DNA of 54,161 bases from positions 1-54,161 of IMG/VR virus record IMGVR_UViG_3300043446_003900; one strand, written 5' to 3'. A model generated the notes under the pieces. The model had not been told where the DNA came from. It worked only from the letters and a program-made list of their open reading frames with translations, and searched no databases. Shown one piece after another: positions 1,796-54,161 of this stretch. Position 1 is the first letter of the stretch. Every line of letters starts with the position of its first letter. The position numbers and the translations under genes are program-made. Origin of the DNA: a virus.

Positions 1796-1805
1796 TTTAT
1801 CTTTA

Positions 1806-2153
1806 TCACTGTTTTGCAGTTTCTAAAACACTTAATACTAAAGTTAAGGCATTATTTTCACTTGCTTGAACTTTAAAAATATCATTAGTTTCTAAAACAA
1901 GTCTGCCGTCAGAAACTATATTATAACCGTCTTTTGGTGGTATTGGAACCTGAGCACTTAAACTAATATCACTTGGAGACTCTGAAGTTCTAGAATGATA
2001 TGCAGTTACTGATACAATACCCGAAGAAGTATTTGATACTTGAGATAAAATAATAATCGATGCTACTCCAGCAGGGCATGTATATATTCCAGTATTGGTG
2101 GTTGTTACATTATACCTTATTGTTCTAAATTTATTAAGTGCAACTACTGCCAT
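1806..2153 (-). CDS. Small virion protein, stand-alone fibre C-terminal-type domain
   Basis: This is a 115-residue protein with no collagen repeats, sandwiched between two collagen-like fibre genes. Its pattern (GIYTCPAGVASIIILSQVSN, then PIPPKDGYNIV, then LVLETNDIFKVQASENN) resembles the two roughly 90-residue units at the C-terminus of the collagen-like fibre at the right end of the window (PIPTGASVELL, then MVLNPSDRIAMRATD). By eye it is the same predicted beta-sandwich encoded as a separate protein. It begins one base after the stop of the gene upstream. A role as a fibre tip, cap or minor structural protein is inferred from context; no enzymatic motif is visible. Confidence 0.7.
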   Translation of the reverse strand: MAVVALNKFRTIRYNVTTTNTGIYTCPAGVASIIILSQVSNTSSGIVSVTAYHSRTSESPSDISLSAQVPIPPKDGYNIVSDGRLVLETNDIFKVQASENNALTLVLSVLETAKQ

Positions 2154-2154
2154 T

Positions 2155-5100: not shown

Positions 5101-6342
5101 AAGACCTTGAGTGCCTTGAAGACCTTGAGTGCCTTGAAGACCTTGAGTGCCTTGAAGACCTTGAAGACCTTGAGTGCCTTGAAGACCTTGAGTGCCTTGA
5201 AGACCTTGAAGACCTTGAGTGCCTTGAAGACCTTGATTACCTTGAGTACCTTGTAATCCTTGATTACCTTGTAATCCTTGATTACCTTGTAATCCTTGAT
5301 TACCTTGTAATCCTTGATTACCTTGTAATCCTTGATTACCTTGAGTACCTTGTAATCCTTGAGTACCTTGATGTCCTTGAAGACCTTGAGTACCTTGTAA
5401 TCCTTGATTACCTTGTAATCCTTGAGTACCTTGAAGACCTTGATTTCCCTGAAGACCTTGAAGACCTTGATTACCTTGAAGTCCTTGAGTACCTTGAGTG
5501 CCTTGAAGACCTTGATTACCTTGAGTACCTTGAGTACCTTGTAATCCTTGAAGACCTTGAGTACCTTGAAGTCCTTGAGTACCTTGAAAATTACTTAGAG
5601 TACCTTGTAATCCTTGATTACCTTGCAATCCTTGTGTTCCTTGTCGACCTTGATTACCTTGAAGACCTTGATTTCCTTGTAATCCTTGATTGCCTTGCAA
5701 TCCTTGTGTTCCTTGTCGACCTTGATTACCTTGTAATCCTTGAGTACCTTGAAGACCTTGATTACCTTGAAGTCCTTGAGTACCTTGAGTACCTTGTAAT
5801 CCTTGAGTACCTTGTAATCCTTGAGTACCTTGATGTCCTTGAAGACCTTGAGTTCCTTGAAGACCTTGAGTTCCTTGAGTACCTTGAAAATTACTTAGAG
5901 TACCTTGTAATCCTTGAAGTCCTTGAAGACCTTGCAATCCTTGTGTTCCTTGTCGACCTTGATTACCTTGAGTTCCTTGAAAATTACTTAAAGGTCCTTG
6001 AGTTCCTTGAAGACCTTGCAATCCTTGTGTTCCTTGTCGACCTTGATTACCTTGAGTTCCTTGAAAATTACTTAAAGGTCCTTGAGTTCCTTGAAAATTA
6101 CTTAAAGGTCCTTGAGTTCCTTGAAGTCCTTGAAGACCACCTCCACCTCCACCACCACCAGAAAAAAGAGCACCATTTTGATAGAGATCACCTGAAAAAT
6201 TAATATCTCCTACAACATCTAAATTATATCTAGGAAGTGTAGAACCAATACCAACAGATCCACCAACACTAATTGTATTGACTTCTAAGTCATTAATTTC
6301 CTCAGGTGGTCTATCTGTATAATAGATTCTAATTCTGGTCAT
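2155..6342 (-). CDS. Giant collagen-like fibre with beta-helix-like C-terminal region
   Basis: This 1395-residue protein has three parts. Residues 1-60 are a non-repetitive head with [10 protein letters not shown] and [18 protein letters not shown], a phrase typical of phage fibre bases. After a poly-Gly hinge (61-69), residues about 69-584 are nearly uninterrupted collagen-like triplets, mostly [12 protein letters not shown] and G-R-Q, broken by GxLSNFQ and GLSNQ units. Residues about 590-1395 are non-repetitive. [15 protein letters not shown] starts a stretch resembling right-handed beta-helix (pectate-lyase-like) proteins, including [16 protein letters not shown]. It overlaps the upstream gene by ATGA. 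Proline is almost absent from the triplets. It is probably a trimeric fibre or whisker; the receptor is unknown. The long open frames on the opposite strand here are repeat artefacts. Confidence 0.88.
4590..6140. repeat. 9-bp periodic collagen-coding repeat
   Basis: Units such as CCTTGAAGA and CCTTGTAAT alternate for 1.5 kb with 9-bp period. Each encodes one G-x-Q triplet on the minus strand. Similar tracts lie at 1-945, 1260-1550, 52420-52867 and 53425-54161. Confidence 0.9.
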
Positions 6343-39760: not shown

Positions 39761-40426
39761 TCAATTATTTATGGGAATCCCATATTTTTGTGATAGTTCA
39801 AGATTTTGTTCTTCCATTGTTTGGAATCCTTTTACTTGTGCCCAACAAACGATACTGTATCGTTTTCCTTTTGTAACTGGTTCAACGCCGTGTTTATAAT
39901 GACGATTTGATGGAAAACAAATTAACATTCCTGGTTCTGGACGAATACGAATTTTAAGATCAGGAAATATAAAATCACCACCCTCAAAATCATCATTCAA
40001 ATAAAACACCATTGAAAGATCACGATCAGTAGATTTCTTCCAAATCAATTCTCCCTTTGGTGTTTGCCATAAGGATTCTCCGTCAAGATGAGGACAATAA
40101 TGACCTCCAACACTATAAGAAAGTATTTGTGGAACTTCACTTTGACTGATTTGAACACCATAAAATGGATTAATAATTTCTCTTACAGTATCTTTAAATA
40201 AATCTACAATTTTGGGAAACAATGGACCCATTTCAACATGTTGAGTATCTCTCACATTCTTATCTACTCTCCATTGTTTTGTTCCAGTCTCATTTGACTT
40301 TTGTGGATCAAATACAGATAAATCAGTTTTTTGAGATGTTTCAATATGATGACGGATTTCTCTTAATCCAGTTTCATTAATAATATTTGGTCTTATCAGA
40401 ATATAAGATAAAGGATTATCAATCAT
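39761..40426 (-). CDS. 2OG-Fe(II) oxygenase, prolyl-4-hydroxylase type
   Basis: This 221-residue protein has an intact jelly-roll active site: HxD at H113/D115 (HLDGES), distal H179 (HYKHGVEPV) and the 2-oxoglutarate-binding R189 (KGKRYSIV), with FEGGDFIFP (148-156) between. It should hydroxylate a protein or small molecule using iron and 2-oxoglutarate. Family members include prolyl hydroxylases, but the collagen-like fibres in this window have almost no proline in their triplets, so another substrate is likelier. It begins 25 bp after a propeller gene, behind the shared element at 40427-40447, and is followed by a late box. Confidence 0.88.
   Translation of the reverse strand: MIDNPLSYILIRPNIINETGLREIRHHIETSQKTDLSVFDPQKSNETGTKQWRVDKNVRDTQHVEMGPLFPKIVDLFKDTVREIINPFYGVQISQSEVPQILSYSVGGHYCPHLDGESLWQTPKGELIWKKSTDRDLSMVFYLNDDFEGGDFIFPDLKIRIRPEPGMLICFPSNRHYKHGVEPVTKGKRYSIVCWAQVKGFQTMEEQNLELSQKYGIPINN
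39766..39772 (-). promoter_or_regulatory. ATAAATA late-promoter-like box
   Basis: Minus-strand CATAAATA, core 39772-39766, 22 bp upstream of the 132-residue gene and inside the end of the 2OG oxygenase gene. Confidence 0.45.
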
Positions 40427-40447
40427 AAAGTTTTAATTATTATAACA
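40427..40447 (-). promoter_or_regulatory. Repeated intergenic element, extended -10-like
   Basis: Minus-strand TGTTATAATAATTAAAA lies between the propeller stop and the oxygenase start. The same element stands at 46173-46196 and 49673-49696. TGTTATAAT fits an extended -10 box (TGnTATAAT), about 13 bp before the ATG here. Confidence 0.45.
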
Positions 40448-40451
40448 TATA

Positions 40452-42461
40452 TTATACTATATTTGTAACAATTTTCTTCACTGGAAATGCGCCACTTGAT
40501 GCGGCAAGGTTATCACGAGCAGTACTTAAAACAGCACTGGGATTGATAGTCGTAATATCTGTTGAATAAGTTAATTTATCCACAGTTGATAATCGTGTAG
40601 GACCAGGAGTAGCACCACCACCAAAATATCCTGCCGTTGAGGATCCTGTTGCGGCATTACCAAAACGAGCAGCACTTAAAATAGCACCGGGAATAGCAGC
40701 AGTTGTATCAGTTGAATAAGTTAACTTATCCATTTTTGATGTTAATGGAAGACCACCACCAAAGTATCCTGCTGTTAAAGATCCTGTTGCACCACAACGA
40801 TAAGTACTAGCAGTTAAATTAGCACCAGGAGTGAATGCAGTTGTATCGGTTGAATAAGTTAATTTATCCATTCTGCTTTGTACCCCAGGAACTCTACCAC
40901 CACCAAAGTACCCCACTAGTCCGTTTCCTGTTGCCGCAAGATAAAAAGAACCAATACTTAAATTAGCACCAGGAGTATAAGCAGTTGTATCAGACGCATA
41001 AGTTAATTTATCCATTCTTGAATGGAATGTTGCTGCTGGTTGAAGACCAGCACCAAAATATCCTGCTGTTGAGGATCCTGTTGCAGCAGAACCATAACGA
41101 ATAGTACTTAAATTAGCGCCAGGAGTATATGCAGTTGTATCGGATGAATAAGTTAACTTATCCATTGTTGATACTACACTGCCAGTAGTACCACCACCAA
41201 AATATCCTGCTGTTGAGTTTCCTGTTGCGGCAATAGAGTCACGAGCAGAACTTAAAATAGCACCGGGAATAGCAGCAGTTGTATCGGTTGAATAAGTTAA
41301 CTTATCCATTGTTGATACTACACTACCAGTAGTGCCACCACCAAAATATCCTACATTTGAAGTGACACTATCAAGAACTTGTGAAGTTGTTGAAGTTGAT
41401 GTTGGGTTTGGTTGTGCTCCCAAACTTCCAGTACCAAAATTAACTGACAGTGTTGCTGCAGCAGGTACTCCATTTGCTCTGGCACTTGATGCAGCAAAAC
41501 TATTACGAACAGCACTTAAATTGGCACCAGGAGTATATGCAGTTGTATCGGTTGAATAAGTTAACTTATCCATTCTTGATACAGCTGCAGGAACATTATC
41601 AGTACCACCACCAAAGTATCCTGCCGTTGAAGATCCTGTTGCGGTAAGATATCGACGACCAGCAGTTAAGTTAGCACTAGAAGGAAGATTGGAAGTAATT
41701 TCCGTTGAATAAACTAATTTTGCAACTTCACTTGCTACAGTTCCACCACCAACAAAACCACCACCAAAATATCCTGCTGTTGTATTTCCTGTTGCACCAG
41801 CAACCTGACGACTACTAGGTAAATTAGCACTAGGGATGGCAGAAGTTGTATCGGATGAATAAGTCAACTTATCTACTCTTGTATAATAAGTACCAGAAAA
41901 ATCACCACCGCCAACAAAGTATCCTGCTGTTGAGGATCCTGTTGCCATCAACCTTTGACGAGCAATACTTAAATTAGCACCAGGAGTATATGCTGTAGTA
42001 TCAGTTGAATAAGTTAATTTATCCATTATTGTTGTATTAGTAGCACCGCCACCAAAATATCCTACTGCTACAGATCCTGTTGCACCCATAAAAGTACGAG
42101 CAGAACTTAAATTAGCACCAGGAGCAGCAGCAGTTGTATCGGTTGAATAAGTTAACTTATCCGTTGTTGATCCAGCAGAACCACCACTAAAGTATCCTGC
42201 TGTCGGAGATCCTGTTGCACCATGAGAATCACGATTAGAACTTAAATTAGCACCAGGAGTATAAGCAGTTGTATCAGTTGAATAAGTGACCTTATCCATT
42301 CGTGAATATGCTGCAATACCACCACCAAAATAACCTGTGTTTGGTGAAGTTCCCACAGGTGAAGGTAAAACCCAAACATCATTAAGATTTACCCACTCAT
42401 CAGATAATGATATATCTACGATGTCTATTAATGCAAATACACCCCGAGTGTCAGTGGCCAT
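40452..42461 (-). CDS. Double six-bladed kelch-like propeller protein, copy 1
   Basis: This 669-residue protein has a short head (MATDTRGVFALIDIV, then WVNLNDVW) and 12 units of about 48 residues, each starting GYFGGG or a variant and continuing (S/M)xMDKLTYSTDTT, PGANLS and ATGSSTA. Six units run from residue 43, a Ser/Pro/Thr linker follows, then six more from about 370. The GG after an aromatic resembles kelch blades. Some blades differ (GYFSGG, GYFVGG, GYFGAG). The C-terminus is KKIVTNIV. It overlaps the oxygenase-like gene by 11 bp. Adhesin or fibre-tip role is inferred from repetition and neighbours; family known in cyanophages only as hypothetical or fibre-like, as I recall. Confidence 0.8.
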   Translation of the reverse strand: MATDTRGVFALIDIVDISLSDEWVNLNDVWVLPSPVGTSPNTGYFGGGIAAYSRMDKVTYSTDTTAYTPGANLSSNRDSHGATGSPTAGYFSGGSAGSTTDKLTYSTDTTAAAPGANLSSARTFMGATGSVAVGYFGGGATNTTIMDKLTYSTDTTAYTPGANLSIARQRLMATGSSTAGYFVGGGDFSGTYYTRVDKLTYSSDTTSAIPSANLPSSRQVAGATGNTTAGYFGGGFVGGGTVASEVAKLVYSTEITSNLPSSANLTAGRRYLTATGSSTAGYFGGGTDNVPAAVSRMDKLTYSTDTTAYTPGANLSAVRNSFAASSARANGVPAAATLSVNFGTGSLGAQPNPTSTSTTSQVLDSVTSNVGYFGGGTTGSVVSTMDKLTYSTDTTAAIPGAILSSARDSIAATGNSTAGYFGGGTTGSVVSTMDKLTYSSDTTAYTPGANLSTIRYGSAATGSSTAGYFGAGLQPAATFHSRMDKLTYASDTTAYTPGANLSIGSFYLAATGNGLVGYFGGGRVPGVQSRMDKLTYSTDTTAFTPGANLTASTYRCGATGSLTAGYFGGGLPLTSKMDKLTYSTDTTAAIPGAILSAARFGNAATGSSTAGYFGGGATPGPTRLSTVDKLTYSTDITTINPSAVLSTARDNLAASSGAFPVKKIVTNIV

Positions 42462-42981
42462 TCTTTAATATTATTTTTTGATACAGCATAGAAGTATTTA
42501 GATCTTGCCCAAATCCTTTACCATAAGAATGCCAACGATTTGCACGAAATAAAATCATACGATTATACTTTGCGGAAATACTTCCATACTCCTTCCATAA
42601 GTCGGGATTGTTTGCAAAAATATTCAACAAATTATTTTCTTGAAGATTATATTTAACCTTTTCTTCTTCTGTTGGAAATGTTTCAAGTCCAGTGACACGA
42701 TGGGAATAAAACTTCATTCCAAATTCACCAAAGGAAACCAATGGTAAAGATAGATAAATTACAACAATCCAATCAGCAAGTAAGTGAGCACACACAGAAG
42801 TATTTTGGTTCTCACTCAACACTTCATTCGTTGCACTGATAATTTCTATTTTATTACCAACAATGTTACTCAACTTATCATAAGTCTCATTGGTAATGAC
42901 ACACTGGTTTTCAAAAAAACCTTTATGATATTGGTGTGGAATATCATAAAGGTTATCTACAATGACAATAGACTGGTTCAT
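42451..42981 (-). CDS. 2OG-oxygenase-fold protein, apparently inactive (DUF6445-like)
   Basis: This 176-residue protein parallels the enzyme at 49058-49672: IVIVDNLYDIPH at the start and YNRMILFRANRWHSYGKGFG (139-158) near the end. The metal triad is not intact as read: the HxD is replaced by H66-L-L-A-D70 (CAHLLADWIVVIYLS), H151 remains, and the residue in place of the 2-oxoglutarate-binding Arg is M165. It may be an inactive binding protein or act on an unusual substrate. It overlaps the next gene by 11 bp and the previous by 4 bp. Confidence 0.6.
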   Translation of the reverse strand: MNQSIVIVDNLYDIPHQYHKGFFENQCVITNETYDKLSNIVGNKIEIISATNEVLSENQNTSVCAHLLADWIVVIYLSLPLVSFGEFGMKFYSHRVTGLETFPTEEEKVKYNLQENNLLNIFANNPDLWKEYGSISAKYNRMILFRANRWHSYGKGFGQDLNTSMLYQKIILKNGH

Positions 42982-43835
42982 TGTGCTATATTATTACCTT
43001 CAATTTGTTTGTTTTCTACACCAGGTGAAATTGCTGCACCATAACCAAGATCCTTCCCAGAAACTTTTTCATATCCCTTCATTACCTTGCTTTGAAGATC
43101 TGCAATAAACTCTTGTCTTCCTTGTGGATCAAGAAGTTTATTCATAGGTAGATAACCTTCGCTGAATTGATTTTTCTCATCCACAATAGGAGGTGCAGAT
43201 GCTTGACGCATTGCAGTAATATTTGCACCAGAAATACCAGTTTGTGCTGAAAGAAGATCATCAAGTGCCTGCTGGGCAAGACGAGTATCCCAATAGTTTT
43301 CATTCTCTTTCAGGAACTGTTCTCTGGAAGGAGGAGTACCACCATTTCTTTCAACCAGTTTATTCAACATCTTATCCAGATGTTCCATTTGATGCATACG
43401 ATCACGAATTTCTAATTCTGAATTTTTCAGATAATGCATCAGTTCAAGTTCTTCAAGATCATACCAACAGAGTTTCTTATGACCACCACCAGGTCCACCA
43501 ATTTCCCACATAATTGGTTGAGTTTTATCTTTATCATGCCACTTATATTCAAATTCACGAACTCGTTCTTTCATTTCAATGAGTTTGAACATATAACCAG
43601 ATGCCATTCCACGTCGCTCTTTGAGAATATGTTCAAAGGTCACTGAAATGTTATGAGTGTTCATACCAATGAACTTCTCAATCTGGAAGTTAGTTCTTCC
43701 TTGTGCTAGTTCCTTGTCACTTTCTTCCCAAGTAAATACATTTTGGGATGCTAATTTTAAAAAAGTGTCGTCATTAACTGCTTGCTCAGCATTAATTGGA
43801 TTATAAGAAAGCGCAGAAGAGTTGTCAGTAGTCAT
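42978..43835 (-). CDS. Conserved cyanophage hypothetical, 285 residues
   Basis: This protein is rich in charged helices: FTWEESDKELAQGRTNFQIE, then FIGMNTHNISVTFEHILKER, then KHDKDKTQPIMWEIGGPGG-like text with HKKLCWYDLEELELMHYLKN. GTPPSREQFLKENENYWD follows and a Gly/Asn-rich end. No catalytic motif is seen; a virion or assembly factor is likely by context. An exact TATAAATA box lies about 73 bp upstream and a good SD (GAGGATAGT) precedes the ATG; the leader holds a hairpin. It overlaps the oxygenase-like gene by ATGA. Confidence 0.6.
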   Translation of the reverse strand: MTTDNSSALSYNPINAEQAVNDDTFLKLASQNVFTWEESDKELAQGRTNFQIEKFIGMNTHNISVTFEHILKERRGMASGYMFKLIEMKERVREFEYKWHDKDKTQPIMWEIGGPGGGHKKLCWYDLEELELMHYLKNSELEIRDRMHQMEHLDKMLNKLVERNGGTPPSREQFLKENENYWDTRLAQQALDDLLSAQTGISGANITAMRQASAPPIVDEKNQFSEGYLPMNKLLDPQGRQEFIADLQSKVMKGYEKVSGKDLGYGAAISPGVENKQIEGNNIAQ

Positions 43836-43867
43836 ACTATCCTCATTAATTTTGTAAGTCGTTTGGT

Positions 43868-43895
43868 CTAATTATATGTTCAAAAACATAATTAG
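43868..43895 (-). other. Imperfect hairpin in the leader of the 285-residue gene
   Basis: An inverted repeat (CTAATTAT with ATAATTAG) closes a loop in the 5' leader. It lacks a T run, so it is not an intrinsic terminator; a role in mRNA stability or translation is possible. Confidence 0.4.
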
Positions 43896-43907
43896 AAATT
43901 ATAAAAG

Positions 43908-43915
43908 TATTTATA
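43908..43915 (-). promoter_or_regulatory. Exact T4-type late promoter box TATAAATA
   Basis: Minus-strand TATAAATA (43915-43908), the T4 late consensus, directly after the stop of the GT4-FkbM gene and 73 bp upstream of the 285-residue gene. Confidence 0.65.
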
Positions 43916-45514
43916 TTATACTCCAAAACCTTTATTGCGATTTTGATTAATTGCAAAGAAAGTTCCAGAAGATAATCCTTGTTCTTCTGATCCTGAATTT
44001 TGTGTTACCTTTTCAATTTTAAATCCATTAAATTTCAAATATTTAAAAAGCATTTCTTCATTATAGGATGTCATACCAATATGATATTCACCGACAATTT
44101 TTTCAACCTTATGAAGTAACTTTGAATTCATTAGAATTTCATATTCAGATCCTTCTACATCTAGTTTGAGTAACTTAACTTTTTGAAACTTGAACAGAAT
44201 ATCATCCAAAGAAATTGTTTCCACTTGAATAGGAACAAATTGTCCTTCTTCAAAATGAGTTTTATAGAATGAATTTAGACCAGTGTTTGGTTTATTTGGT
44301 AGGGTATAAAACTCCAAATACTCATTAGAAGTTTTCCATACAGCAAGATTATATGCAGCAAAGTGCTTATAGTTTGAGAGATTAGATCTCATCAATGAAT
44401 AATTATTTGGTTCTGCTTCATATGCAAATACATTTTTACAACCTTTGTCCATACAAAGTTTGCTGAAATATCCTGCGTGTCCACCAATATCAATCACTAC
44501 ATCGTGCTCATTAAAGGTATCAACTTCATAGGAATTTTCAACATAAACTTCATTAAAGATCCAATCGTCCATTGTTTGAGGACGGAAAGAAACTGAATGA
44601 GTTGTAGAACCAGTTAAAGTTTCAATTGTATTTTTCCACATTTCAGAAACTCGTTTCCAGTTATATCGTTCTGAAACATAATCTGAAATGAGTTTAGAAA
44701 CTTCGTGATAATATTTTTGTTCCTTATCATAATATTCCAATGCCATACAACAAGCATTGACAAAATTAATCAAAAAGTTATCTGTAACTTTCCAACCTTT
44801 GGATGTATTCTCACCTTCAATCGGAACAACAGTAGCATTCTTTTCACCAGCAACTTCTGCAAGTGCTCCAATGTTGGTAATGATTGGATATGCACCACAC
44901 TTCATTGCTTCTGTCATTGCAACACAAAATGTTTCTTCCCAGATATTTGGATGAATAAAGAATGCAGATTCCTGATAGTGTTTGACTAATTCTTCACGAT
45001 CAACAGCAGGAGAATACTCAACATTTTTCATTGTTTTTAAATGATCATAAAGTTGAAGATATGGATCATTTGAAGGCCCATACAAAGACATTGAAGAAAA
45101 GATTTTAAACTTTGTATCTGGATGAACCTGATGAATCATAGGAATAATTCTTGCCAGAACTTCAAGACCCTTATAAGGAATTGAAGTGAAAATCATCGTC
45201 TTTGTTTTCTGATTTGAATAGGTAAACATTTCAGCAATTCCTGTTGGAATCACTGTGATCTTATGTTCTGGAACATTATGATACTTCATAAATTGTTCCT
45301 TGTTCCATTGAGAAGGAGAAACAATATGATGGAGAATATGATGATCAAAGTTTAAAAAGAATTGCTGATCATATGCATGTTGTGCCCAGAGAATTTTATA
45401 CTCGTGATTAGACTTTTTAATTTCTTCTGGTAAATGATGAACAAAAACATTATCTGGAATTTTATAATGTTCTTCCAGATAAAAATAAGAAGATTCCGTT
45501 GCTCCAGATTTCAT
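43916..45514 (-). CDS. GT4 glycosyltransferase-FkbM methyltransferase fusion
   Basis: This 532-residue protein has a GT-B/GT4 half (residues about 40-300): ILWAQHAYDQQFFLNFDHHI, then the nucleotide-sugar EETFCVAMTEAMKCG (193-207, E-x7-E). A FkbM half follows (about 335-520): VVIDIGGHAGYFSKLC (339-354, SAM motif I) and KLLKLDVEGSEYEI (about 443-456). It would add a hexose and O-methylate it or a neighbour. Each half matches separately encoded enzymes elsewhere in phages, so fusion is notable. AAGGATAGT is its SD; 4 bp separate it from the next GT. Acceptor unknown. Confidence 0.85.
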   Translation of the reverse strand: MKSGATESSYFYLEEHYKIPDNVFVHHLPEEIKKSNHEYKILWAQHAYDQQFFLNFDHHILHHIVSPSQWNKEQFMKYHNVPEHKITVIPTGIAEMFTYSNQKTKTMIFTSIPYKGLEVLARIIPMIHQVHPDTKFKIFSSMSLYGPSNDPYLQLYDHLKTMKNVEYSPAVDREELVKHYQESAFFIHPNIWEETFCVAMTEAMKCGAYPIITNIGALAEVAGEKNATVVPIEGENTSKGWKVTDNFLINFVNACCMALEYYDKEQKYYHEVSKLISDYVSERYNWKRVSEMWKNTIETLTGSTTHSVSFRPQTMDDWIFNEVYVENSYEVDTFNEHDVVIDIGGHAGYFSKLCMDKGCKNVFAYEAEPNNYSLMRSNLSNYKHFAAYNLAVWKTSNEYLEFYTLPNKPNTGLNSFYKTHFEEGQFVPIQVETISLDDILFKFQKVKLLKLDVEGSEYEILMNSKLLHKVEKIVGEYHIGMTSYNEEMLFKYLKFNGFKIEKVTQNSGSEEQGLSSGTFFAINQNRNKGFGV

Positions 45515-45518
45515 AATA

Positions 45519-46172
45519 CTATCCTTGATAAATGTGATAACCAGTATGATTTAAACGAATTGTTGTGTCTAACCAAATATCATAACCGACTTGTTGTGCT
45601 CTATGAAAAAAACTTTTGTCTTCTGACATAAATGAATTTTGAGTTTTATGTTCCGCAAAGTAATGATAAGAATTATTCATTTCAGCATCTGTATGAGGAG
45701 TATCTGAATGATAATCGGATGGAATATATTTTAGACCTGGATATTGTTTTGTAATGTCAAGAAAAACTTGACGATGAATAAGAACAAATCCCATTCCGTT
45801 ACCATTAATTTTTACAAGATCTCCTTGTCGTTGCTCTGGTTGAATAACTTCTACACAATATCGTTCTGGGATTATCTTCATCGGATAAGCACCAGAAACG
45901 ATTGGAAGTTGATATGATAGTAATTTTATCACATCTTGTGGATTAAATCCAATATCACTGTCCAAAAAGAAAAGATAGTCGTGCTCCGTATTATTGATGA
46001 AAAAACTTGCGATCTTTGATCTTGCCTGACTGATCAAAGAAGAATTTGTCAGCGTTAAAAGTCCGTGATCTATATTTGCACGAACTAATGCTTTTCCTAA
46101 ATTGAAAAGTCCAAGTGTTGTTTTCTCACTCACTATTCCCCCACTACACGGGAGACCAATCATTATACTCAT
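45519..46172 (-). CDS. GT-A-fold glycosyltransferase
   Basis: This 217-residue protein has a GT-A core: SIMIGLPCSGGIVSEKTTLG, then LFFLDSDIGFNPQDV with the DSD metal motif at 71-73, and HTDAEMNNSYHYFAEHKT. It is smaller than typical GT2 enzymes. It starts 28 bp after a propeller gene, behind the repeated element at 46173-46196. An in-frame ATG four codons later is a possible alternative start. The sugar added is unknown. Confidence 0.75.
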   Translation of the reverse strand: MSIMIGLPCSGGIVSEKTTLGLFNLGKALVRANIDHGLLTLTNSSLISQARSKIASFFINNTEHDYLFFLDSDIGFNPQDVIKLLSYQLPIVSGAYPMKIIPERYCVEVIQPEQRQGDLVKINGNGMGFVLIHRQVFLDITKQYPGLKYIPSDYHSDTPHTDAEMNNSYHYFAEHKTQNSFMSEDKSFFHRAQQVGYDIWLDTTIRLNHTGYHIYQG

Positions 46173-46196
46173 ATAAAGTTTTTAATTATTATAACA
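46173..46196 (-). promoter_or_regulatory. Repeated intergenic element, extended -10-like
   Basis: Minus-strand TGTTATAATAATTAAAAA, 16 bp before the ATG of the GT-A gene and just after the propeller copy 2 stop. Same element as at 40427 and 49673. Confidence 0.5.
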
Positions 46197-46200
46197 CAAA

Positions 46201-48231
46201 TCATACGTTATTTGGAGCTGGAGTTGAATAAGTTGGTTGTGGAAGTGCATTTGCTCTAGCACTTGATGCGGCAGGACGACTGCGATTAGAACTTAAATTA
46301 GCACCTGGAGTGTAAACAGTTGTATCAGTTGAATAAGTTAATTTATCCATTCTTGATACTGGACCGGGACCACCGCCACCAAAATATCCTGCTGTTGAAG
46401 AACCTGTTGCAGCAAGAGAAGAACGATTAGAACTTAAATTGGCACTAGGAGCGTAGGCGGTTGTATCAGTTGAATAAGTCAATTTATCCATTCTTGAATA
46501 AAAAGTAAGCGGAGAAGGAAAAATACCACCTCCAAAGTATCCATGAGTTGAGTTCCCTGTTGCACCAGGATCGTAACGAGCAGCACTTAAATTAGCACCA
46601 GGAGTATATACGGTTGTATCAGTTGAATAAGTTAATTTATCCATTGTTGATACCACGCTAGGACCAGGGGAACCACCACCAAAGTACCCTGAAGTAGAAT
46701 TACCTGTTGATGCAGAAGAAGCACGAGAAGAACTTAAATTAGCACCAGGAGTATATACGGTTGTATCGGTTGAATAAGTTAACTTATCCATTGTTGAAAA
46801 GAAAATACCTCCTCCGAAATATCCCGCAGTGGAATTTCCTGTTGCTGTAACATTACGGGCAGAGCTTAAATTAGCACCAGGAGTAGCAGCAGTTGTATCA
46901 GACGCATAAGTCAATTTATCCATTGTTGAATATGAGTTAACACCTCCACCAAATCCGCCACCAAAATACCCTGCTGTTGAGGATCCTGTTGCACCAAGAC
47001 CATTGCGGGAAATACTTAATGCAGCGGCAGGAATTACTGTTGTCGTATCGGTTGAATAAGTTAACTTATCCATTGTTGAAGAATAACTAGGAATCTCACC
47101 ACCACCAAAGTATCCTGTGTTTGGTGTTGGTACTGATGCAAGTGAAGTTACTGATGTTGGTGTTGCTGCTGGTGGTGTCCCTGGTGTTCCGTCACTAAAT
47201 CTTACTGCTGGTGATGCTGGTGCTGGAAATAATTCAGGTAGTGCATTTGCTCTTGCGCTTGATGCTGCAAGACTATAACGAGAAGCACTTAAGTTAGCAC
47301 CAGGAGTATAAACAATTGTATCAGTTGCATAAGTCAATTTATCCATTCTTGATGCTGGAGCTGGACCGATACCACCACCAAAGTATCCATTAGTAGAAGA
47401 ACCTGTTGCAGCAAGAGCACGACGAGCAAGACTTAAATTAGTACCAGGAACTGATACTGTCGTATCAGTTGAATAAGTTAATTTACTGATTAAAGATAAA
47501 TTAGCGGCAGGAGAAAAACCACCACCAAAATATCCATTAGTTGAGTTTCCTGTTGCAGCAAGATTACTACGAGAAGGACTTAAATTAGCACCAGGAGTAT
47601 ATGCAGTTGTATCGGTTGAATAAGTTAACTTATCCATTGTTGATTTGTAGGCAGGACCAGGAATACCACCACCACCAAAGTATCCTGCTGTTGAATTACC
47701 TGTTGCAGCAAGATAAGCACGAGCATCACTTAAATTAGCACCAGGAGTATAAACGGTTGTATCGGTTGAATAAGTTAACTTATCCATTGTGGTTACAGTT
47801 ATACCACCACCAAAATATCCTGCATTTGAGTTTCCTGTTGCAGTAAGAACCAGGCGAGCAGCACTTAAGTTAGCACCAGGAGTTGCTGCTGTTGTATCAG
47901 ATGAATAAGTGACCTTATCCATTGTAGATGTTGATGAAGGAGTACCTCCACCACCAAAGTATCCTGCTGTTGAATTACCTGTTGCAGCATGAGCATAACG
48001 AACAATACTTAAATTAGCACCAGGAGTGAATACTGTTGTATCAGTTGAATAAGTTAATTTATCCATTCTTGATACTACAGGAGTAGTGCCACCACCAAAG
48101 TATCCAGTATTTGGTGTATATCCAGCAGGGGATGGAGAAATCCAAACATCATTGAGGTTTACCCATTCATCAAATATTTCTTTTTCTGTGATTTTTTCTA
48201 GACTAAAAACTCCCCGTGTATTAACTGCCAT
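46201..48231 (-). CDS. Double six-bladed kelch-like propeller protein, copy 2
   Basis: This 676-residue protein follows the same plan: head MAVNTRGVFSLEKI and WVNLNDVW, six GYFGGG blades, a Pro/Ser/Ala linker (LPELFPAPASPAVRFSDGTP), six more blades, and end PNNV. The last blade's DNA (46259-46338) is identical over 80 bp to blade 6 of copy 3. Individual blades differ mainly in loops after GYFGGG (for example IGPAPAS, FSPAANLSL), which would be the variable surface. It starts 3 bp after the sulfotransferase stop. A CTAAATA-like sequence at 48285-48291 is too far inside a gene to call. Confidence 0.8.
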   Translation of the reverse strand: MAVNTRGVFSLEKITEKEIFDEWVNLNDVWISPSPAGYTPNTGYFGGGTTPVVSRMDKLTYSTDTTVFTPGANLSIVRYAHAATGNSTAGYFGGGGTPSSTSTMDKVTYSSDTTAATPGANLSAARLVLTATGNSNAGYFGGGITVTTMDKLTYSTDTTVYTPGANLSDARAYLAATGNSTAGYFGGGGIPGPAYKSTMDKLTYSTDTTAYTPGANLSPSRSNLAATGNSTNGYFGGGFSPAANLSLISKLTYSTDTTVSVPGTNLSLARRALAATGSSTNGYFGGGIGPAPASRMDKLTYATDTIVYTPGANLSASRYSLAASSARANALPELFPAPASPAVRFSDGTPGTPPAATPTSVTSLASVPTPNTGYFGGGEIPSYSSTMDKLTYSTDTTTVIPAAALSISRNGLGATGSSTAGYFGGGFGGGVNSYSTMDKLTYASDTTAATPGANLSSARNVTATGNSTAGYFGGGIFFSTMDKLTYSTDTTVYTPGANLSSSRASSASTGNSTSGYFGGGSPGPSVVSTMDKLTYSTDTTVYTPGANLSAARYDPGATGNSTHGYFGGGIFPSPLTFYSRMDKLTYSTDTTAYAPSANLSSNRSSLAATGSSTAGYFGGGGPGPVSRMDKLTYSTDTTVYTPGANLSSNRSRPAASSARANALPQPTYSTPAPNNV
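46259..46338. repeat. 80-bp identity with 50734-50813 (propeller blades)
   Basis: Exact 80-bp match between the last blade of propeller copy 2 and blade 6 of copy 3. Flanking sequence diverges, as expected for recombination or gene conversion between paralogues. Confidence 0.8.
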
Positions 48232-48234
48232 CTT

Positions 48235-49056
48235 TTAAAAGTACTTATGATTAGAATACTTCCAGTATTCAAGGTTCGTATACCTATTTAGAATATAGGA
48301 ACTCAATATATCCTCTGGGTTCTTTGATTTCTTTTCAATTTTCTTCCGAACATGATGCATATCTTTAAGATACCATTGATCATCAATTTCTCTATGGGTG
48401 TTCTCAATTCTATCAAAGTTATGAGAATAAGAATCAATCTCTAAAAAGTCATAAATCTTCTTTAAGGTCTCATTTGGATTTGAGATTAGATCATCATACT
48501 CAACCATATGTAAGTATTTCTTATCATCACCACGAATAAATGCTTGTGATTGTGCCCAAAGTGCTTGCTCTACAATTCCATCTTTACTCATTAAATAGTC
48601 ACATCGGTTATCATCAGTAATTGATAAACCATTTTCAATCAAATACTGATCCACAAAAGACACTTGATCATTATTGCGTCTTATCATTGTAATAAAGGAT
48701 GTTAGTATCTCTGTTATATTTCTTACTGGGCAAATAATTTTTGGAATTGGAGTAATAAAAGTCTTAATCATTTCAATATTATTACTCCAAGCACGACAAT
48801 GATCAATAATGATTGGTTTTTCTACATCAAAATAATAGTCATCAATGATACTTGAGATCACTTTATGTGCCGACTTTGGTTTTGGATATCCAAGGTATTG
48901 TTCACTATCAACAAAATATTGATTATTATAATGTGTCAATTCTAAAACAGGGCTGACTGGTTCGGTATGAAGTTGTGGATTTTGATTGAGAATACTTTTC
49001 AATAATGTGCTACCAGATCGTGGAAGACCTGCCATAAAATAATAAGTCTTATTCAT
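48235..49056 (-). CDS. Sulfotransferase
   Basis: This 273-residue protein is a PAPS-dependent sulfotransferase. The 5'-phosphosulfate loop GLPRSGSTLL is at 10-19, and the 3'-phosphate loop lies near R112 and S120 (ICPVRNITEILTSF). A His or other base in FVDQYLIEN-like positions cannot be fixed. It would sulfate a sugar hydroxyl or a tyrosine. In context next to glycosyltransferases and a propeller gene, sulfating fibre or host glycans is an inference. It lies 1 bp after the DUF6445-like enzyme. Confidence 0.85.
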   Translation of the reverse strand: MNKTYYFMAGLPRSGSTLLKSILNQNPQLHTEPVSPVLELTHYNNQYFVDSEQYLGYPKPKSAHKVISSIIDDYYFDVEKPIIIDHCRAWSNNIEMIKTFITPIPKIICPVRNITEILTSFITMIRRNNDQVSFVDQYLIENGLSITDDNRCDYLMSKDGIVEQALWAQSQAFIRGDDKKYLHMVEYDDLISNPNETLKKIYDFLEIDSYSHNFDRIENTHREIDDQWYLKDMHHVRKKIEKKSKNPEDILSSYILNRYTNLEYWKYSNHKYF

Positions 49057-49057
49057 A

Positions 49058-49672
49058 TCACCACTCTATTGGATTAAAAAAGAATAATTGAACCAATCTA
49101 CCATTTTCTAATGTAGTTCCAAAATTATAATTATGAGAATGCCAAAGTCTAGCATTAAAAATCACTAGACGATTATACTTCATTGGTGAGAGAAAGTATC
49201 GTGTCCATTTTGAACGATCCAATCCTTCACCATAAACTGTAGTCCACCACGCTTCTTTGGGAACAGAATATCCAAAATGATTTGCCTCAGGTTGATTTGA
49301 AGGGCAAAACTCCATTTGGGTTTTATTATGTATCCAGAACGATGTACCACCCTCATCAATTACTTGTTCTGGTGTATTTAAATAACAAACTGCTCCCCAT
49401 TCCCAACAAGGATCTACATGAACATCTTGACGGAATGTGTCTGTTTCTAACGATAATCTAAAATATCCATTGGGTTGTGATGGTGTTAACTTAGATTGTA
49501 AAATATTTTCAAACTTTTGATGTAGTTCTTCAGGGTAATATCCAACTTCTGTGTTCTTTCCCGGATAAGTATATTCATCATAAGGTTCTGGATATTCTTG
49601 TTGAAGTGCAAATTGACGAACTTCATCTGGATTTGAATGGAAATCGTCAATGACAATAATATTGCGATTCAT
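49058..49672 (-). CDS. 2OG-Fe(II) oxygenase, DUF6445-like, intact triad
   Basis: This 204-residue protein begins NIIVIDDFHSNPDEVRQFAL, typical of DUF6445-type dioxygenases. The HxD is H85-V-D87 (RQDVHVDP), a later His is at H178 or H180 (LWHSHNYNFG), and R192 suits 2-oxoglutarate binding. The loop DEGGTSFWIHNKT holds the substrate. It should hydroxylate a protein or glycan. The paralogue at 42451 has lost part of this triad. It starts 28 bp after propeller copy 3, behind the repeated element. Confidence 0.75.
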   Translation of the reverse strand: MNRNIIVIDDFHSNPDEVRQFALQQEYPEPYDEYTYPGKNTEVGYYPEELHQKFENILQSKLTPSQPNGYFRLSLETDTFRQDVHVDPCWEWGAVCYLNTPEQVIDEGGTSFWIHNKTQMEFCPSNQPEANHFGYSVPKEAWWTTVYGEGLDRSKWTRYFLSPMKYNRLVIFNARLWHSHNYNFGTTLENGRLVQLFFFNPIEW

Positions 49673-49696
49673 ATAAGGTTTTTAATTATTATAACA
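49673..49696 (-). promoter_or_regulatory. Repeated intergenic element, extended -10-like
   Basis: Minus-strand TGTTATAATAATTAAAAA, 16 bp before the DUF6445-like gene and after propeller copy 3. Identical in its core and spacing to the element at 46173. Confidence 0.5.
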
Positions 49697-49700
49697 CTAA

Positions 49701-51695
49701 TTATACGATATTTGGTATTTGTCCTGAATAAGTTGGTTGTGGAAGTGCATTTGCTCTGGCACTTGATGCAGCAAGATTACTACGAGTAGCACTTAAATTA
49801 GCACCAGGAGTATATGCTGTTGTATCAGATGAATAAGTGACCTTATCCATTCTCCAGTCTGGTCCAGGATCACCACCACCAAAGTACCCTGCTGTTGAAT
49901 TACCTGTTGCACCAAGACGAAGACGAGCAACACTCAAACTTGCGCTAGAAGGAAGAGCAGAAGTTGTATCAGTTGAATAAGTCAACTTATCCATTGTTGA
50001 TATTGCTCCTGGAGCCCAACCACCACCAAAATATCCTGCTGTTGAAGAACCTGTTGCAGCAAGTTGATTGCGAGCAAGACTTAAATTAGCACCAGGAGTT
50101 GTCGCTGTTGTATCGGTTGAATAAGTGACCTTATTCATTGTTGATACTGAAGATCCTGTACCAGGATAACCACCACCAAAATATCCTGCTGTTGAAGATC
50201 CTGTTGCAGCAAGAATATAACGAACGGCACTTAAATTAGCACCAGGAGTGAATGCTGTTGTATCTGTTGAATATGTTAACTTATCCATTGTTGATACCGG
50301 TGCAGGACTACCACCACCAAAGTATCCTGCTGTTGAAGAACCTGTTGCAGCAAGATAACCACGAGCAGCACTTAAATTAGCACCAGGAGTTGCTGCTGTT
50401 GTATCAGATGAATAAGTGACCTTATCCATTGTTGAGACATAACCAGGATTCTTATTACCACCACCAAAGTACCCCGCTGTTGAAGAACCTGTTGCACCAG
50501 GACCGTTACGACCAGCACTTAAATTAGCACCAGGAGTTGCTGATGTTGTATCGGTTGAATAAGTTAACTTATCCATTGTTGATGTATTACCCCCACCACC
50601 AAAGTATCCTGTGTTTGGAGATGGCAATGTTCCTGGTGATGTTGTTGGAGTTGGTGTTGCTGCTGGTGGTGTCCCTGGCATTCCGTTACTAAATCTAGTA
50701 TTGTAAGTTGGTTGTGGAAATGCATTTCCTCTTGCACTTGATGCGGCAGGACGACTGCGATTAGAACTTAAATTAGCACCTGGAGTGTAAACAGTTGTAT
50801 CAGTTGAATAAGTCAACTTATCCATTGTTGATACCGGTCCAGGAATACCACCACCAAAGTATCCTGCCGTTGAGGATCCTGTTGCGGCAAGAAAATAACG
50901 AGCAGAAGTTAAATTAGCACCAGGAGTATATGCAGTTGTATCAGACGCATAAGTTAATTTATCCATTCTTGTTGTAGTACTCCAGCCACCACCAAAGTAT
51001 CCAAAGTTAGAATTTCCTGTTGCACCACAACCATAACGGGCAGAACTTAAATTAGCACCAGGAGTATATGCAGTTGTATCAGTTGAATAAGTCAACTTAT
51101 CCATTCTTGATACCGGTCCAGGAGCACCGCCACCAAAATACCCTGAAGTAGAATTACCTGTTGCAGCAAAAGAAGAACGATTAGAACTTAAATTGGCACT
51201 AGGAGTTGCTGCTGTTGTATCAGATGAATAAGTGACCTTATCCATTGTTGAGACATAAGAAGGAGAAGGAGTATTTCCACCACCAAAATATCCTGCTGTT
51301 AAGGATCCTGTTGCTCCAAGACGATAACGACTAGCACTTAAATTAGCACCAGGAGTGAATGCTGTTGTATCTGTCGAATAAGTAACCTTATCCATTCTTG
51401 ATGCTGCACTACCAGTAGTGCCACCACCAAAGTATCCTGCTGTTGAGTTTCCTGTTGCAGTAATAGAAGAACGAGCAGCACTTAAGTTAGCACCAGGAGT
51501 AAATGCTGTCGTATCTGATGAATAAGTCAACTTATCCATTGTTGATACTACACTACCAGTAGTGCCACCACCAAAGTATCCAGTATTTGGGGTTGGATTA
51601 TTACCAATCCACACATCATTCAAATCTACCCATCCACCTCTTGCATTTATTTTATTAACTAACCGTATAGAAAAAACACCTCTTGTATCTGCCAT
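49701..51695 (-). CDS. Double six-bladed kelch-like propeller protein, copy 3
   Basis: The start is the ATG at 51695 (664 residues, MADTRGVFSIRLV), matching the heads of the two other copies; an earlier ATG only adds 13 residues within the fibre gene. It has WVDLNDVW, six GYFGGG blades, a linker (FPQPTYNTRFSNGMPGTPPA), six more blades and end PNIV. Blade 6 (50734-50813) shares 80 identical bp with the last blade of copy 2, and the stretch near 51531 is identical to one in copy 1. It starts one base after the collagen-like fibre stop. Adhesin role inferred. Confidence 0.8.
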   Translation of the reverse strand: MADTRGVFSIRLVNKINARGGWVDLNDVWIGNNPTPNTGYFGGGTTGSVVSTMDKLTYSSDTTAFTPGANLSAARSSITATGNSTAGYFGGGTTGSAASRMDKVTYSTDTTAFTPGANLSASRYRLGATGSLTAGYFGGGNTPSPSYVSTMDKVTYSSDTTAATPSANLSSNRSSFAATGNSTSGYFGGGAPGPVSRMDKLTYSTDTTAYTPGANLSSARYGCGATGNSNFGYFGGGWSTTTRMDKLTYASDTTAYTPGANLTSARYFLAATGSSTAGYFGGGIPGPVSTMDKLTYSTDTTVYTPGANLSSNRSRPAASSARGNAFPQPTYNTRFSNGMPGTPPAATPTPTTSPGTLPSPNTGYFGGGGNTSTMDKLTYSTDTTSATPGANLSAGRNGPGATGSSTAGYFGGGNKNPGYVSTMDKVTYSSDTTAATPGANLSAARGYLAATGSSTAGYFGGGSPAPVSTMDKLTYSTDTTAFTPGANLSAVRYILAATGSSTAGYFGGGYPGTGSSVSTMNKVTYSTDTTATTPGANLSLARNQLAATGSSTAGYFGGGWAPGAISTMDKLTYSTDTTSALPSSASLSVARLRLGATGNSTAGYFGGGDPGPDWRMDKVTYSSDTTAYTPGANLSATRSNLAASSARANALPQPTYSGQIPNIV
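50734..50813. repeat. 80-bp identity with 46259-46338 (propeller blades)
   Basis: Partner of the repeat at 46259-46338, located at the end of the first propeller of copy 3. Confidence 0.8.
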
Positions 51696-51696
51696 A

Positions 51697-54161
51697 TTAT
51701 GTTGAAAGTTTAATTCCTGATATTTGAACATCAATTGTTGATGTTTGATCCAAAGTTACTTGTATTGAATTATTTGCATAAATTGATTTTGGATTATCTA
51801 ATATCTCAACACTTCCATATTTTGGAACAATCAAATCATCTATAAGATATGTGGTACTTAATCCGGTAGTTACAGCTATAGATACTGGATATCCTCCACT
51901 ATCAGTACGATTTACTAAACGAATAGATTGAATAACTGATCCCGTAGTTGTTGTTGTATAAATTGTAGTTGGACTTGTTGATGCAATTGAAACTGAACCT
52001 ACTCCAACTCCAAAATAGTTTGTATTCGTTGATTGTTCATAAGAAATGTATACTTGTACTCCAGTATCAGTTCCATCTCTATTATAATCAGTTGCTCTCA
52101 TTGCAATTCTATCAGATGGATTTAAAACCATCGGTTGTTTCAACAATTCAACCGAAGCACCAGTCGGAATTGGAATATTATATGCAAAATAACTTCTTTC
52201 GCCAGTACTATTAATATCAAAAGCACCGATGACATTTACTTCGGTATTTCCAATCGCTATATTTGAAGCATTAATAGAATGAATAATATATCTCTTGTCA
52301 GCAGTTGAAGGAAGTGTAAGAACGGTTGATCCAATAGCAATCAATGTTGCAGAAACACTACTTGTAATTCCAATATTAAATCCTCCTCCTCCTCCGCCGC
52401 TGCCGCCAGATCCTGATGCTCCCTGCAATCCTTGCAGACTACCTCCTTGTAGACCTTGAAGACCTTGAACACCCTGATTACTTAAACCTTGAAGTCCTTG
52501 AGCACCTTGAATACCTTGAGAACCTTGATTACTTAAACCTTGTAATCCCTGCAATCCTTGATTACCTTGAGTTCCTTGATTACCTTGTAATCCTTGAGTA
52601 CCTTGTAATCCTTGAGTACCTTGTAATCCTTGAGTACCTTGATGTCCTTGAAGACCTTGAGTACCTTGAGTACCTTGATTACCTTGTAATCCTTGAGTAC
52701 CTTGTAATCCTTGAGTACCTTGAGTACCTTGATCTCCCTGAAGTCCTTGAGTACCTTGAGTACCTTGAATTCCTTGAGTTCCCTGTAAACCTTGAGTACC
52801 TTGTAATCCCTGTAAACCTTGATTACCTTGAGTACCTTGAGTTCCCTGTAATCCTTGTAATCCTGCTGCATAAGGATCCGTCCAACTTACGCCAGCACCA
52901 GTGGAAATAAGAATAGATCCAGAAGATCCTAAGCTGTCATAACGATCATAAAGACCGCCATCAAGTGCCATATTTCCACCAACTGCCAGAACTGTTCCAG
53001 CAGACATATGAGTAGAACCAATTCCAACACCATAATTAAACATCCAAGCATCAGTACCAAGTCCACCCCAAGTTCCTTGCTTAACCCACATAATTTGCTT
53101 GTAGGTTTCTGGAAGTGGATCAGAAGATGATTTTATAGAAACTAATGGAGAACCTTCTGTAGATGCAATAGCAATACCACCGTGATTTGCAGTATCATCA
53201 TTTGGGTTAGTAGTTGTTGAATATCCAAGAATTATGTCTCTATCTTCAACTCTAAGTTCAGTAGCGTTAATATAGACTGATGTACCACCAATTGTTAGAT
53301 TGTTTGTAACATTTAAATCATAAACATTTAATAAAGTTCCATCAAATGTGAAATTATCAGATCCAGTTGGATTATTAGATCCATCCTTATAAACAACTTG
53401 ATAAGCAGAACCTGCTACAGGACCTGTTTGACCTTGGATTCCTTGTAAACCTTGAGTACCTTGTGTTCCTTGTGTTCCTTGAAGACCTTGAATTCCCTGA
53501 AGTCCCTGATGACCTTGTAAACCTTGAGTACCTTGCACCCCTTGGGTTCCCTGAAGACCTTGTGCTCCTTGAACACCTTGATCACCTTGAAGACCTTGAA
53601 GACCTTGAAGACCTTGAAGACCTTGAGTTCCTTGAGTACCCTGAGCACCTTGAAGTCCTTGAGTACCTTGTAAACCTTGAGTACCTTGAATTCCCTGAGT
53701 ACCTTGAGTACCCTGATCGCCTTGAGCGCCTTGAAGACCCTGAGTACCTTGATTACTTAAACCTTGAAGTCCTTGAAGTCCTTGAGAACCTTGATTACTT
53801 AAACCTTGAAGTCCTTGAAGTCCTTGAGATCCTTGATTACCTTGAAGACCCTGAGTACCTTGAGTACCCTGATCGCCTTGAGCGCCTTGAGTACCTTGAT
53901 TACTTAAACCTTGAAGTCCTTGAAGTCCTTGAGATCCTTGATTACCTTGAAGACCCTGAGTACCTTGATTACTTAAACCTTGAAGTCCTTGAAGTCCTTG
54001 AGATCCTTGATTACCTTGAAGACCCTGAGTACCTTGAGTACCCTGATCGCCTTGAGCGCCTTGAGTACCTTGATTACTTAAACCTTGAAGTCCTTGAGTA
54101 CCTTGAGAACCTTGTAATCCTTGAGTTCCTTGAACACCTTGATTACCTTGAAGTCCTTGAG
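51697..54161 (-). CDS. Collagen-like fibre protein, N-terminus beyond right edge
   Basis: About 821 C-terminal codons are visible; the GTG at 53538 is inside the collagen frame and is not the start. From the right edge to about 53425 run G-x-Q triplets with GLSNQ interruptions and two near-repeated blocks. A globular region (53424-52868) has FTFDGTLLNVYDLNVTNN and GGIAIASTEG, a domain shared with other cyanophage fibres, and a second collagen-like tract (52867-52420) ends in a poly-Gly hinge. The last 240 residues contain two similar beta-units (PIPTGASVEL, and VPKYGSVEIL). It is the upstream member of the same fibre family as the genes at 1-6342. No SD or head is visible. Confidence 0.85.
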   Translation of the reverse strand, partial: QGLQGNQGVQGTQGLQGSQGTQGLQGLSNQGTQGAQGDQGTQGTQGLQGNQGSQGLQGLQGLSNQGTQGLQGNQGSQGLQGLQGLSNQGTQGAQGDQGTQGTQGLQGNQGSQGLQGLQGLSNQGSQGLQGLQGLSNQGTQGLQGAQGDQGTQGTQGIQGTQGLQGTQGLQGAQGTQGTQGLQGLQGLQGLQGDQGVQGAQGLQGTQGVQGTQGLQGHQGLQGIQGLQGTQGTQGTQGLQGIQGQTGPVAGSAYQVVYKDGSNNPTGSDNFTFDGTLLNVYDLNVTNNLTIGGTSVYINATELRVEDRDIILGYSTTTNPNDDTANHGGIAIASTEGSPLVSIKSSSDPLPETYKQIMWVKQGTWGGLGTDAWMFNYGVGIGSTHMSAGTVLAVGGNMALDGGLYDRYDSLGSSGSILISTGAGVSWTDPYAAGLQGLQGTQGTQGNQGLQGLQGTQGLQGTQGIQGTQGTQGLQGDQGTQGTQGLQGTQGLQGNQGTQGTQGLQGHQGTQGLQGTQGLQGTQGLQGNQGTQGNQGLQGLQGLSNQGSQGIQGAQGLQGLSNQGVQGLQGLQGGSLQGLQGASGSGGSGGGGGGFNIGITSSVSATLIAIGSTVLTLPSTADKRYIIHSINASNIAIGNTEVNVIGAFDINSTGERSYFAYNIPIPTGASVELLKQPMVLNPSDRIAMRATDYNRDGTDTGVQVYISYEQSTNTNYFGVGVGSVSIASTSPTTIYTTTTTGSVIQSIRLVNRTDSGGYPVSIAVTTGLSTTYLIDDLIVPKYGSVEILDNPKSIYANNSIQVTLDQTSTIDVQISGIKLST

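Follow-up and report, generated by a model that had tools for sequence, protein, structure and literature searches.

How do the repeats of phage proteins come to carry stretches of identical sequence in different genes? The question is raised by IMG/VR virus record IMGVR_UViG_3300043446_003900, whose whole stretch of 54,161 nucleotides is called the window here and which contains three genes (c1, c2, and c3) encoding propeller proteins built of repeated blades. An initial annotation made from the sequence noted exact matches between blades of these genes and proposed that intragenomic recombination or gene conversion moves blades among them, thereby varying a binding surface. Our analysis leads to a related answer that we consider probably correct: the products are tandem six-blade Kelch propellers, the blades of each genome form one pool that undergoes conversion-like exchange, and the proteins would play a role in host recognition.

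All three genes lie on the minus strand, c1 at 40452-42461 (669 amino acids), c2 at 46201-48231 (676 amino acids), and c3 at 49701-51695, where the ATG at 51695 is the likely start of an open reading frame (ORF) that extends to a TTG at 51734. Their 36 blades, the total initially counted, are divided equally, and the 12 of each gene fall into two groups of six with a linker between, an architecture that the initial annotation missed, and each gene product is predicted to consist of two tandem six-bladed Kelch propellers. Propeller A, with the linker, spans approximately 41352-42335 in c1, 47116-48105 in c2, and 50610-51581 in c3, and propeller B spans 40452-41351, 46201-47115, and 49701-50609, respectively. 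An AlphaFold2 model of the c2 product, based on an alignment of 36 sequences, had a mean predicted local distance difference test (pLDDT) score of 74 and a predicted template modeling (pTM) score of 0.50; six blades with pLDDT of about 90 or more formed the second unit, and the first unit was poorer (10-residue pLDDT means of about 43-84). Foldseek searches with this model gave six-bladed Kelch structures as best matches (E of about 1e-18, template modeling (TM) score of about 0.9 normalized to the target), designed six-bladed Kelch proteins, KLHL12, and KLHL17 being at the top ranks, and a profile search of PDB chains matched SAKe6FR at 1e-14 and KLHL12 at 2e-8. The model and Foldseek thus point to the Kelch propeller fold, and Kelch sequence models matched through the family members, with Pfam model PF24681 found in 18 and PF13415 in 17 of 36.

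The six-blade unit recurs throughout the family. From 180 distinct propeller ORFs with at least six blades, we excluded 35 running off a contig end and, among the remaining 145 complete ORFs, 33 with uneven blade spacing. In 105 of the resulting 112 evenly spaced complete genes, the blade count was divisible by six, namely 12 (47 genes), 6 (27), 18 (18), 24 (6), 30 (6), and 36 (1), and the seven exceptions had 22, 22, 11, 11, 29, 17, and 10 blades. Only two of the 33 unevenly spaced ORFs showed a multiple of six; we read the uneven spacing mostly as blades missed by the profile, which was built from the window.

The 80-bp match between c2 and c3 was confirmed: positions 46259-46338 and 50734-50813 (both on the minus strand) are identical at 80 of 80 bases. 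On the same diagonal, identity was about 97% over approximately 46230-46359 (minus strand; partner 50705-50834) and fell to about 80% at 46360-46499, beyond which the sequences were unrelated. The flanks therefore differ, as initially described, and the close match takes in most of one blade and the start of the linker. When propeller B of c2 was compared with propeller A of c3, the identities of blades 1-6 were 0.73, 0.70, 0.81, 0.82, 0.78, and 0.92, so that the sixth blade alone stands out. The match had been thought to join non-equivalent positions, and this had to be revised; although the blades are the twelfth of c2 and the sixth of c3 in gene order, each is the sixth, closing blade of its six-blade unit (propeller B and propeller A, respectively), and AASSARANALPQPTY or a similar linker comes after both. 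Non-equivalent positions are instead joined by a 58-base run (c3 blade 8, 50385-50442, minus strand, and c3 blade 3, 51201-51258), a 51-base run (c1 blade 6, 41524-41574, minus strand, and c2 blade 4, 47588-47638), and a 48-base run (c2 blade 2 and c3 blade 3). A further exact match of 56 bases links c2 blade 2 (47870-47925, minus strand) to c3 blade 8 (50377-50432). The match of about 45 bases noted between c1 and c3 exists, with a length of 47 bases (41299-41345, minus strand, and 51529-51575), and pairs two first blades, c1 blade 7 of propeller B and c3 blade 1.

To obtain a null distribution for such runs, codons were shuffled 1000 times within the alignment columns of the 36 blades, either freely or with the amino acids kept. 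A run of at least 80 bases appeared in 0 of the free shuffles and in 1 of those keeping amino acids, and 11 runs of at least 40 bases were observed against means of 1.0 and 2.35, respectively. The longest run per shuffle averaged 41 or 47 bases, so the 47-base run is unremarkable taken alone. In the pairwise homoplasy index (PHI) test on all sites of the 36 blades, the observed value was reached by 5, 2, and 0 of 500 permutations at windows of 3, 5, and 10.

Beyond the window, sequence comparisons indicate that blades evolve in concert within a genome and across its genes. Of 549 blades from 16 genomes, 286 had their nearest neighbor in their own genome, where 38 were expected, and 125 had it at the same in-propeller position, where 90.7 were expected. 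In a tree comprising 227 blades of five genomes, we also counted label changes and compared them with shuffled labels. The genome label required 61 changes against 135 after shuffling (none of 200 shuffles was as low), the gene label showed no clustering inside any of the five genomes (18 changes versus 17.3 in the window), and the label for positions 1-5 gave 113 changes versus 115.3 (58 of 200 shuffles). A grouping of every blade with its positional counterpart only, which the initial annotation had named as evidence against blade movement, was not found; the blades instead grouped strongly by genome. We initially considered position 6 as a separate exchange pool (22 changes versus 35) and rejected this idea, because within genomes the signal was gone once each blade was cut to its first 35 residues (overall, 32 changes versus 35.5; 6 of 300 shuffles). 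The position-6 signal sits in the linker-adjacent end of the blade.

Comparison of related genomes, which we designate by L numbers, gave the same picture. Between the window and L014, whose flanking genes show 76-83% nucleotide identity, blade identity was 0.72, and within the two genomes it was 0.75 and 0.81. In eight genomes (277 blades), propeller genes flank a sulfotransferase-like gene on both sides, and this gene pair is therefore probably older than the splits between the genomes. By mean identity, 258 of the 277 blades (24 of 24 in the window) resembled the second gene of the pair in their own genome more than the corresponding gene in other genomes; by best match, this held for 129 of 277 (19 of 24 in the window). 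The genome label gave 73 changes versus 190.5 shuffled in this set, and the slot label, shuffled within genomes, gave 80 versus 86.2 (16 of 200). These results support blade exchange at the evolutionary scale, and the proposed movement of blades among the three genes is borne out to that extent.

In these sequences, the blades of one genome constitute one pool that evolves in concert: blade-sized and smaller tracts recur in different genes and at different positions, six-blade propellers are conserved, the ends of closing blades and the linkers hold their place, and related phages differ by replaced propellers and reassorted blades. As the process we infer gene conversion between blades, or homologous recombination by double crossover (template switching), because a single crossover out of register would leave a unit with five or seven blades. 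Such units are rare or absent and presumably selected against, with closed six-blade rings kept. Whole propellers may in addition be gained, lost, or swapped between phages. Copying of this kind would reassort the B-C and D-A loops, which are hypervariable and lie on one side of the disc.

Blade variation is concentrated in two loops of one face. In a four-stranded antiparallel blade, the B-C and D-A loops share a face. Amino-acid entropy was 2.29 bits in the B-C loop and 2.17 bits in the variable part of the D-A loop, compared with 0.46 for the C-D turn and 1.63 for the A-B turn. For the D-A loop codons of all 36 window blades (alignment columns 38, 39, and 41-43), nucleotide entropy at codon positions 1, 2, and 3 was 1.68, 1.54, and 0.50, where redrawing codons from other window genes predicted 1.39 for position 3. 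The third base was T in 163 of 179 codons, with the first two bases near saturation, and among the relatives this frozen third base varies from genome to genome. The pattern fits amino-acid change over homogenized silent sites. The ratio of nonsynonymous to synonymous polymorphism (pN/pS) was 1.42 in the B-C loop, 2.04 in the D-A loop, and 0.27 in the C-D turn, while independent draws of genome codons gave 1.21 and draws of the loop's own codons gave 2.76. Since the genome-codon control already exceeded 1, we dropped a ratio above 1 as proof of positive selection and restrict our claim to hypervariable loops with an unusually constant third base. The suggestion that exchange varies a binding surface agrees with this pattern, and receptor binding itself is putative.

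Of the alternatives, weighed here in falling order of probability, the first is that exchange between phages, not within genomes, is the main source of common and replaced blades, which we consider unlikely. Propellers are indeed replaced between phages, a second route of exchange beside the intragenomic one initially proposed. The masked flanks of L133 and L135 are 96.9% identical over 12,170 bases, and in one of their genes the first two propellers are 99-100% identical, save one blade where the L135 ORF is broken, while the last three are replaced (best matches 0.74-0.85; final blade 0.91). Blades 1-4 of unit 3 in gene 2 of L133 are collinear with blades of L077, one of them at 97% over 110 bases. 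Blades with a best match below 0.90 numbered 36 of 54 in L133/L135, 21 of 24 in L048/L050, 30 of 36 in L047/L048, 7 of 7 in L100/L127, 54 of 54 in L117/L135, and 16 of 36 in L019/L051; only alignable flank was counted for these pairs, and some flanks were short (1.7-3.9 kb). Hypervariable host-recognition clusters are known in pelagimyophages, according to PMC7029224. What inter-phage exchange leaves unexplained is why the blades of one genome, across genes, resemble each other above those of other phages. In L019/L051, 21 of 36 blades have a closer blade inside their own genome. Where L133 has one gene of 30 blades, L135 has two ORFs, one of 6 and one of 24 blades (L135:5246-6150 onwards), which is either a real split or a sequencing error.

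Repeated rebuilding of the arrays by unequal crossing over, in which one or a few blades are amplified and conversion plays no part, is also unlikely. It would likewise produce grouping by genome with neither position nor gene signal, and blade amplification is an accepted origin of propellers according to PMC3797127. However, multiples of six persist in 105 of 112 genes, common tracts smaller than a blade have differing flanks, and replacement occurs within a conserved architecture in L133/L135 and L092/L094. The latter belong to a near-identical trio, in which 1 of 18 blades differs by five substitutions in 54 bases. All five L094 states are present in blade u3p5 of the same gene, and the tract has a 25-base run in common with u3p5 and a 54-base run in common with u2p6. 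We regard this change as a candidate for recent conversion, of unassigned direction and with assembly error possible.

Recent duplication only, by which propellers and genes were duplicated lineage by lineage and diverged with no later exchange, would account for the likeness of blades within a genome and for the varying number of propellers between genes, and we consider it improbable. The gene pair around the sulfotransferase, present in eight genomes, is probably older than their divergence, but its blades cluster genome by genome, which argues against recent duplication alone; moreover, whole-propeller copies would retain a position signal, and there is none at positions 1-5. Merging of paralogous blades during short-read assembly is very improbable. 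Repeats do break assemblies (PMC9238414), and the window and its relatives are contigs of metagenome-derived virus records. However, a twin contig, IMGVR_UViG_3300046804_004958, is identical to the window over about 15.7 kb, differing just at its very end, and agrees in 36 of 36 blades; the 80-base match is probably shorter than the usual read length; and the genome-level patterns recur in many contigs, the blades of the cultured Synechococcus phage S-SKS1 being much alike too. Chance combined with codon bias and protein constraint has strong column-specific codon conservation in its favor and is made negligible by the shuffles, in which an 80-base run arose 0 and 1 times in 1000 and about 1-2 runs of at least 40 bases were found where 11 were observed. 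A diversity-generating retroelement working on the loops is equally implausible: adenine mutagenesis of AAY codons can produce a fixed third base with variable first two, as the T in 163 of 179 loop codons would suggest, but the frozen third base is not the same across genomes, and no reverse transcriptase (PF00078) was found in the window's own record (0 of 1) or in any of 12 related records (0 of 12), which reach 222 kb in length and some of which may be fragments.

Several observations weigh against a pool of exchanging Kelch blades. The window propeller proteins themselves matched no Pfam family in a Pfam search, and the PHI signal was weak at third positions alone (26, 92, and 184 of 500 permutations at the same three windows). 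L013 fails the syntenic test on average (12 of 27 blades), and same-genome nearest neighbors were almost absent in 3 of the 16 genomes (L015, 1/36; L026, 2/18; L013, 3/27). No single donor blade matches the whole of the changed tract in L092/L094. Of the 208 blades compared in six near-identical pairs, 207 had a match of at least 0.95, and the remaining one lies at a contig end. With almost no blade variation among near-identical contigs, switching inside a population is unsupported, and the population variation anticipated at the outset was not seen. A search with a 47-base pattern for more isolates of the window's phage returned no contig beyond the one already in the comparison.

The three genes appear to sit in the part of a T4-like marine phage genome that serves the tail and host recognition. 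The window also encodes tail tube, baseplate hub, and tail proteins as well as glycosyltransferases, and its baseplate-hub protein is 61-67% identical to those of marine T4-like phages among the ten best matches; a cultured-phage DNA search with positions 40000-54161 gave no match. Because of this neighborhood and by analogy, we propose a host-recognition role, the propeller proteins being putative receptor-binding or virion-surface proteins. Between c2 and c3 lie the syntenic anchor at 48235-49056 (minus strand, phrog_27463), which we take to be sulfotransferase-like from a PRSGSTLL motif and from the annotated counterpart position in S-SKS1, and a gene at 49058-49672 (minus strand), adjacent to c3, that we read as a 2-oxoglutarate (2OG)-Fe(II)-oxygenase-like gene despite the minor coat protein label of its best PHROG, phrog_1644. 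A 2OG-Fe(II) oxygenase gene (39761-40426, minus strand, phrog_61) is located downstream of c1. Propeller and collagen-like genes are interleaved with oxygenase-like, sulfotransferase-like, and glycosyltransferase genes (39761-40426, 42451-42981, 49058-49672, 48235-49056, and 43916-45514), which suggests modification of virion surface proteins. An AT-rich repeat of 35 bases, with copies 86-89% identical, marks the 3' end of every propeller gene (40431-40465, 46180-46214, and 49680-49714) and may be a common regulatory element or provide homology for recombination. The collagen-like GXY genes at 1-6342 and 51697-54159 have exact repeats of up to 71 bases in common across about 47 kb of the window, so that exchange among them is also possible. 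The initial suggestion that collagen genes vary in the same way was not supported, as the collagen genes showed no change in length; the one nearby difference in repeat number found among near-identical relatives is in another fibre-type gene with 24-residue repeats (L016:4931-9343), which differs from the near-identical L028 by about 576 bases (eight 72-base units), while the propeller genes of L016 and L028 differ by one base.

The closest analogue of the phage blades is the WD40 repeats of the Podospora anserina hnwd genes (het-d, het-e, and het-r). As described in PMC1805685 and PMC2873952, hnwd propeller repeats evolve in concert within and between loci, group by species over ortholog, carry variable residues on one face, and serve recognition. 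The phage blades similarly group by genome over ortholog (with L013, L015, and L026 as exceptions) and exchange between loci. They differ in being Kelch rather than WD40 repeats, in belonging to a phage protein rather than a fungal NOD-like receptor (NLR), in a number fixed at multiples of six, and in lacking gene grouping, whereas hnwd repeats tend to group by source gene. HET and NACHT domains with WD40 repeats gave no Pfam match in the window proteins, which marks hnwd-like behavior and not hnwd membership. The six-bladed Kelch fold is shared with KLHL12, KEAP1, and the designed SAKe6, although the phage units are about 15-21% identical to these in structural alignments, occur as one to six tandem propellers, and have nearly uniform blades per genome. 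Among phages, S-SKS1 and Burkholderia phage BcepSaruman have Kelch-like proteins related in sequence or fold, as do jumbo phages such as PhiPA3 among their predicted virion proteins. S-SKS1 (HQ633071.1, L168) has homologous Kelch arrays at about 201-208 kb and at the record start, beside an annotated sulfotransferase, with propeller ORFs fragmented in the deposited record. Searches of the open-licence PMC literature gave no published account of phages exchanging Kelch or other propeller blades. The host recognition cluster of pelagimyophages and cyanomyophages, as PMC7029224 describes it, is structural and hypervariable and includes fibres, glycosyltransferases, and collagen repeats, and the window region resembles it in these features; a term search found neither kelch nor propeller in the main text of that paper.

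For marine T4-like phages at large, we regard as evenly balanced the broader proposition that Kelch blades are exchanged genome-wide, all those of several fibre-type genes making up a single recombining pool, with silent bases homogenized, loops hypervariable, and only exact six-blade propellers surviving, so that one phage rebuilds its recognition discs from its own parts and those of related phages. Phages have to renew their recognition surfaces continually, and known ways of doing so include point mutation, allele swapping, and retroelement mutagenesis. If our reading is correct, a pool of interchangeable blades whose function is preserved by the closed six-blade ring would add a further route to surface change and be a phage parallel to fungal non-self recognition genes. 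Blade mosaics would then form by ordinary homologous recombination, which might be observable in a cultured phage such as S-SKS1.

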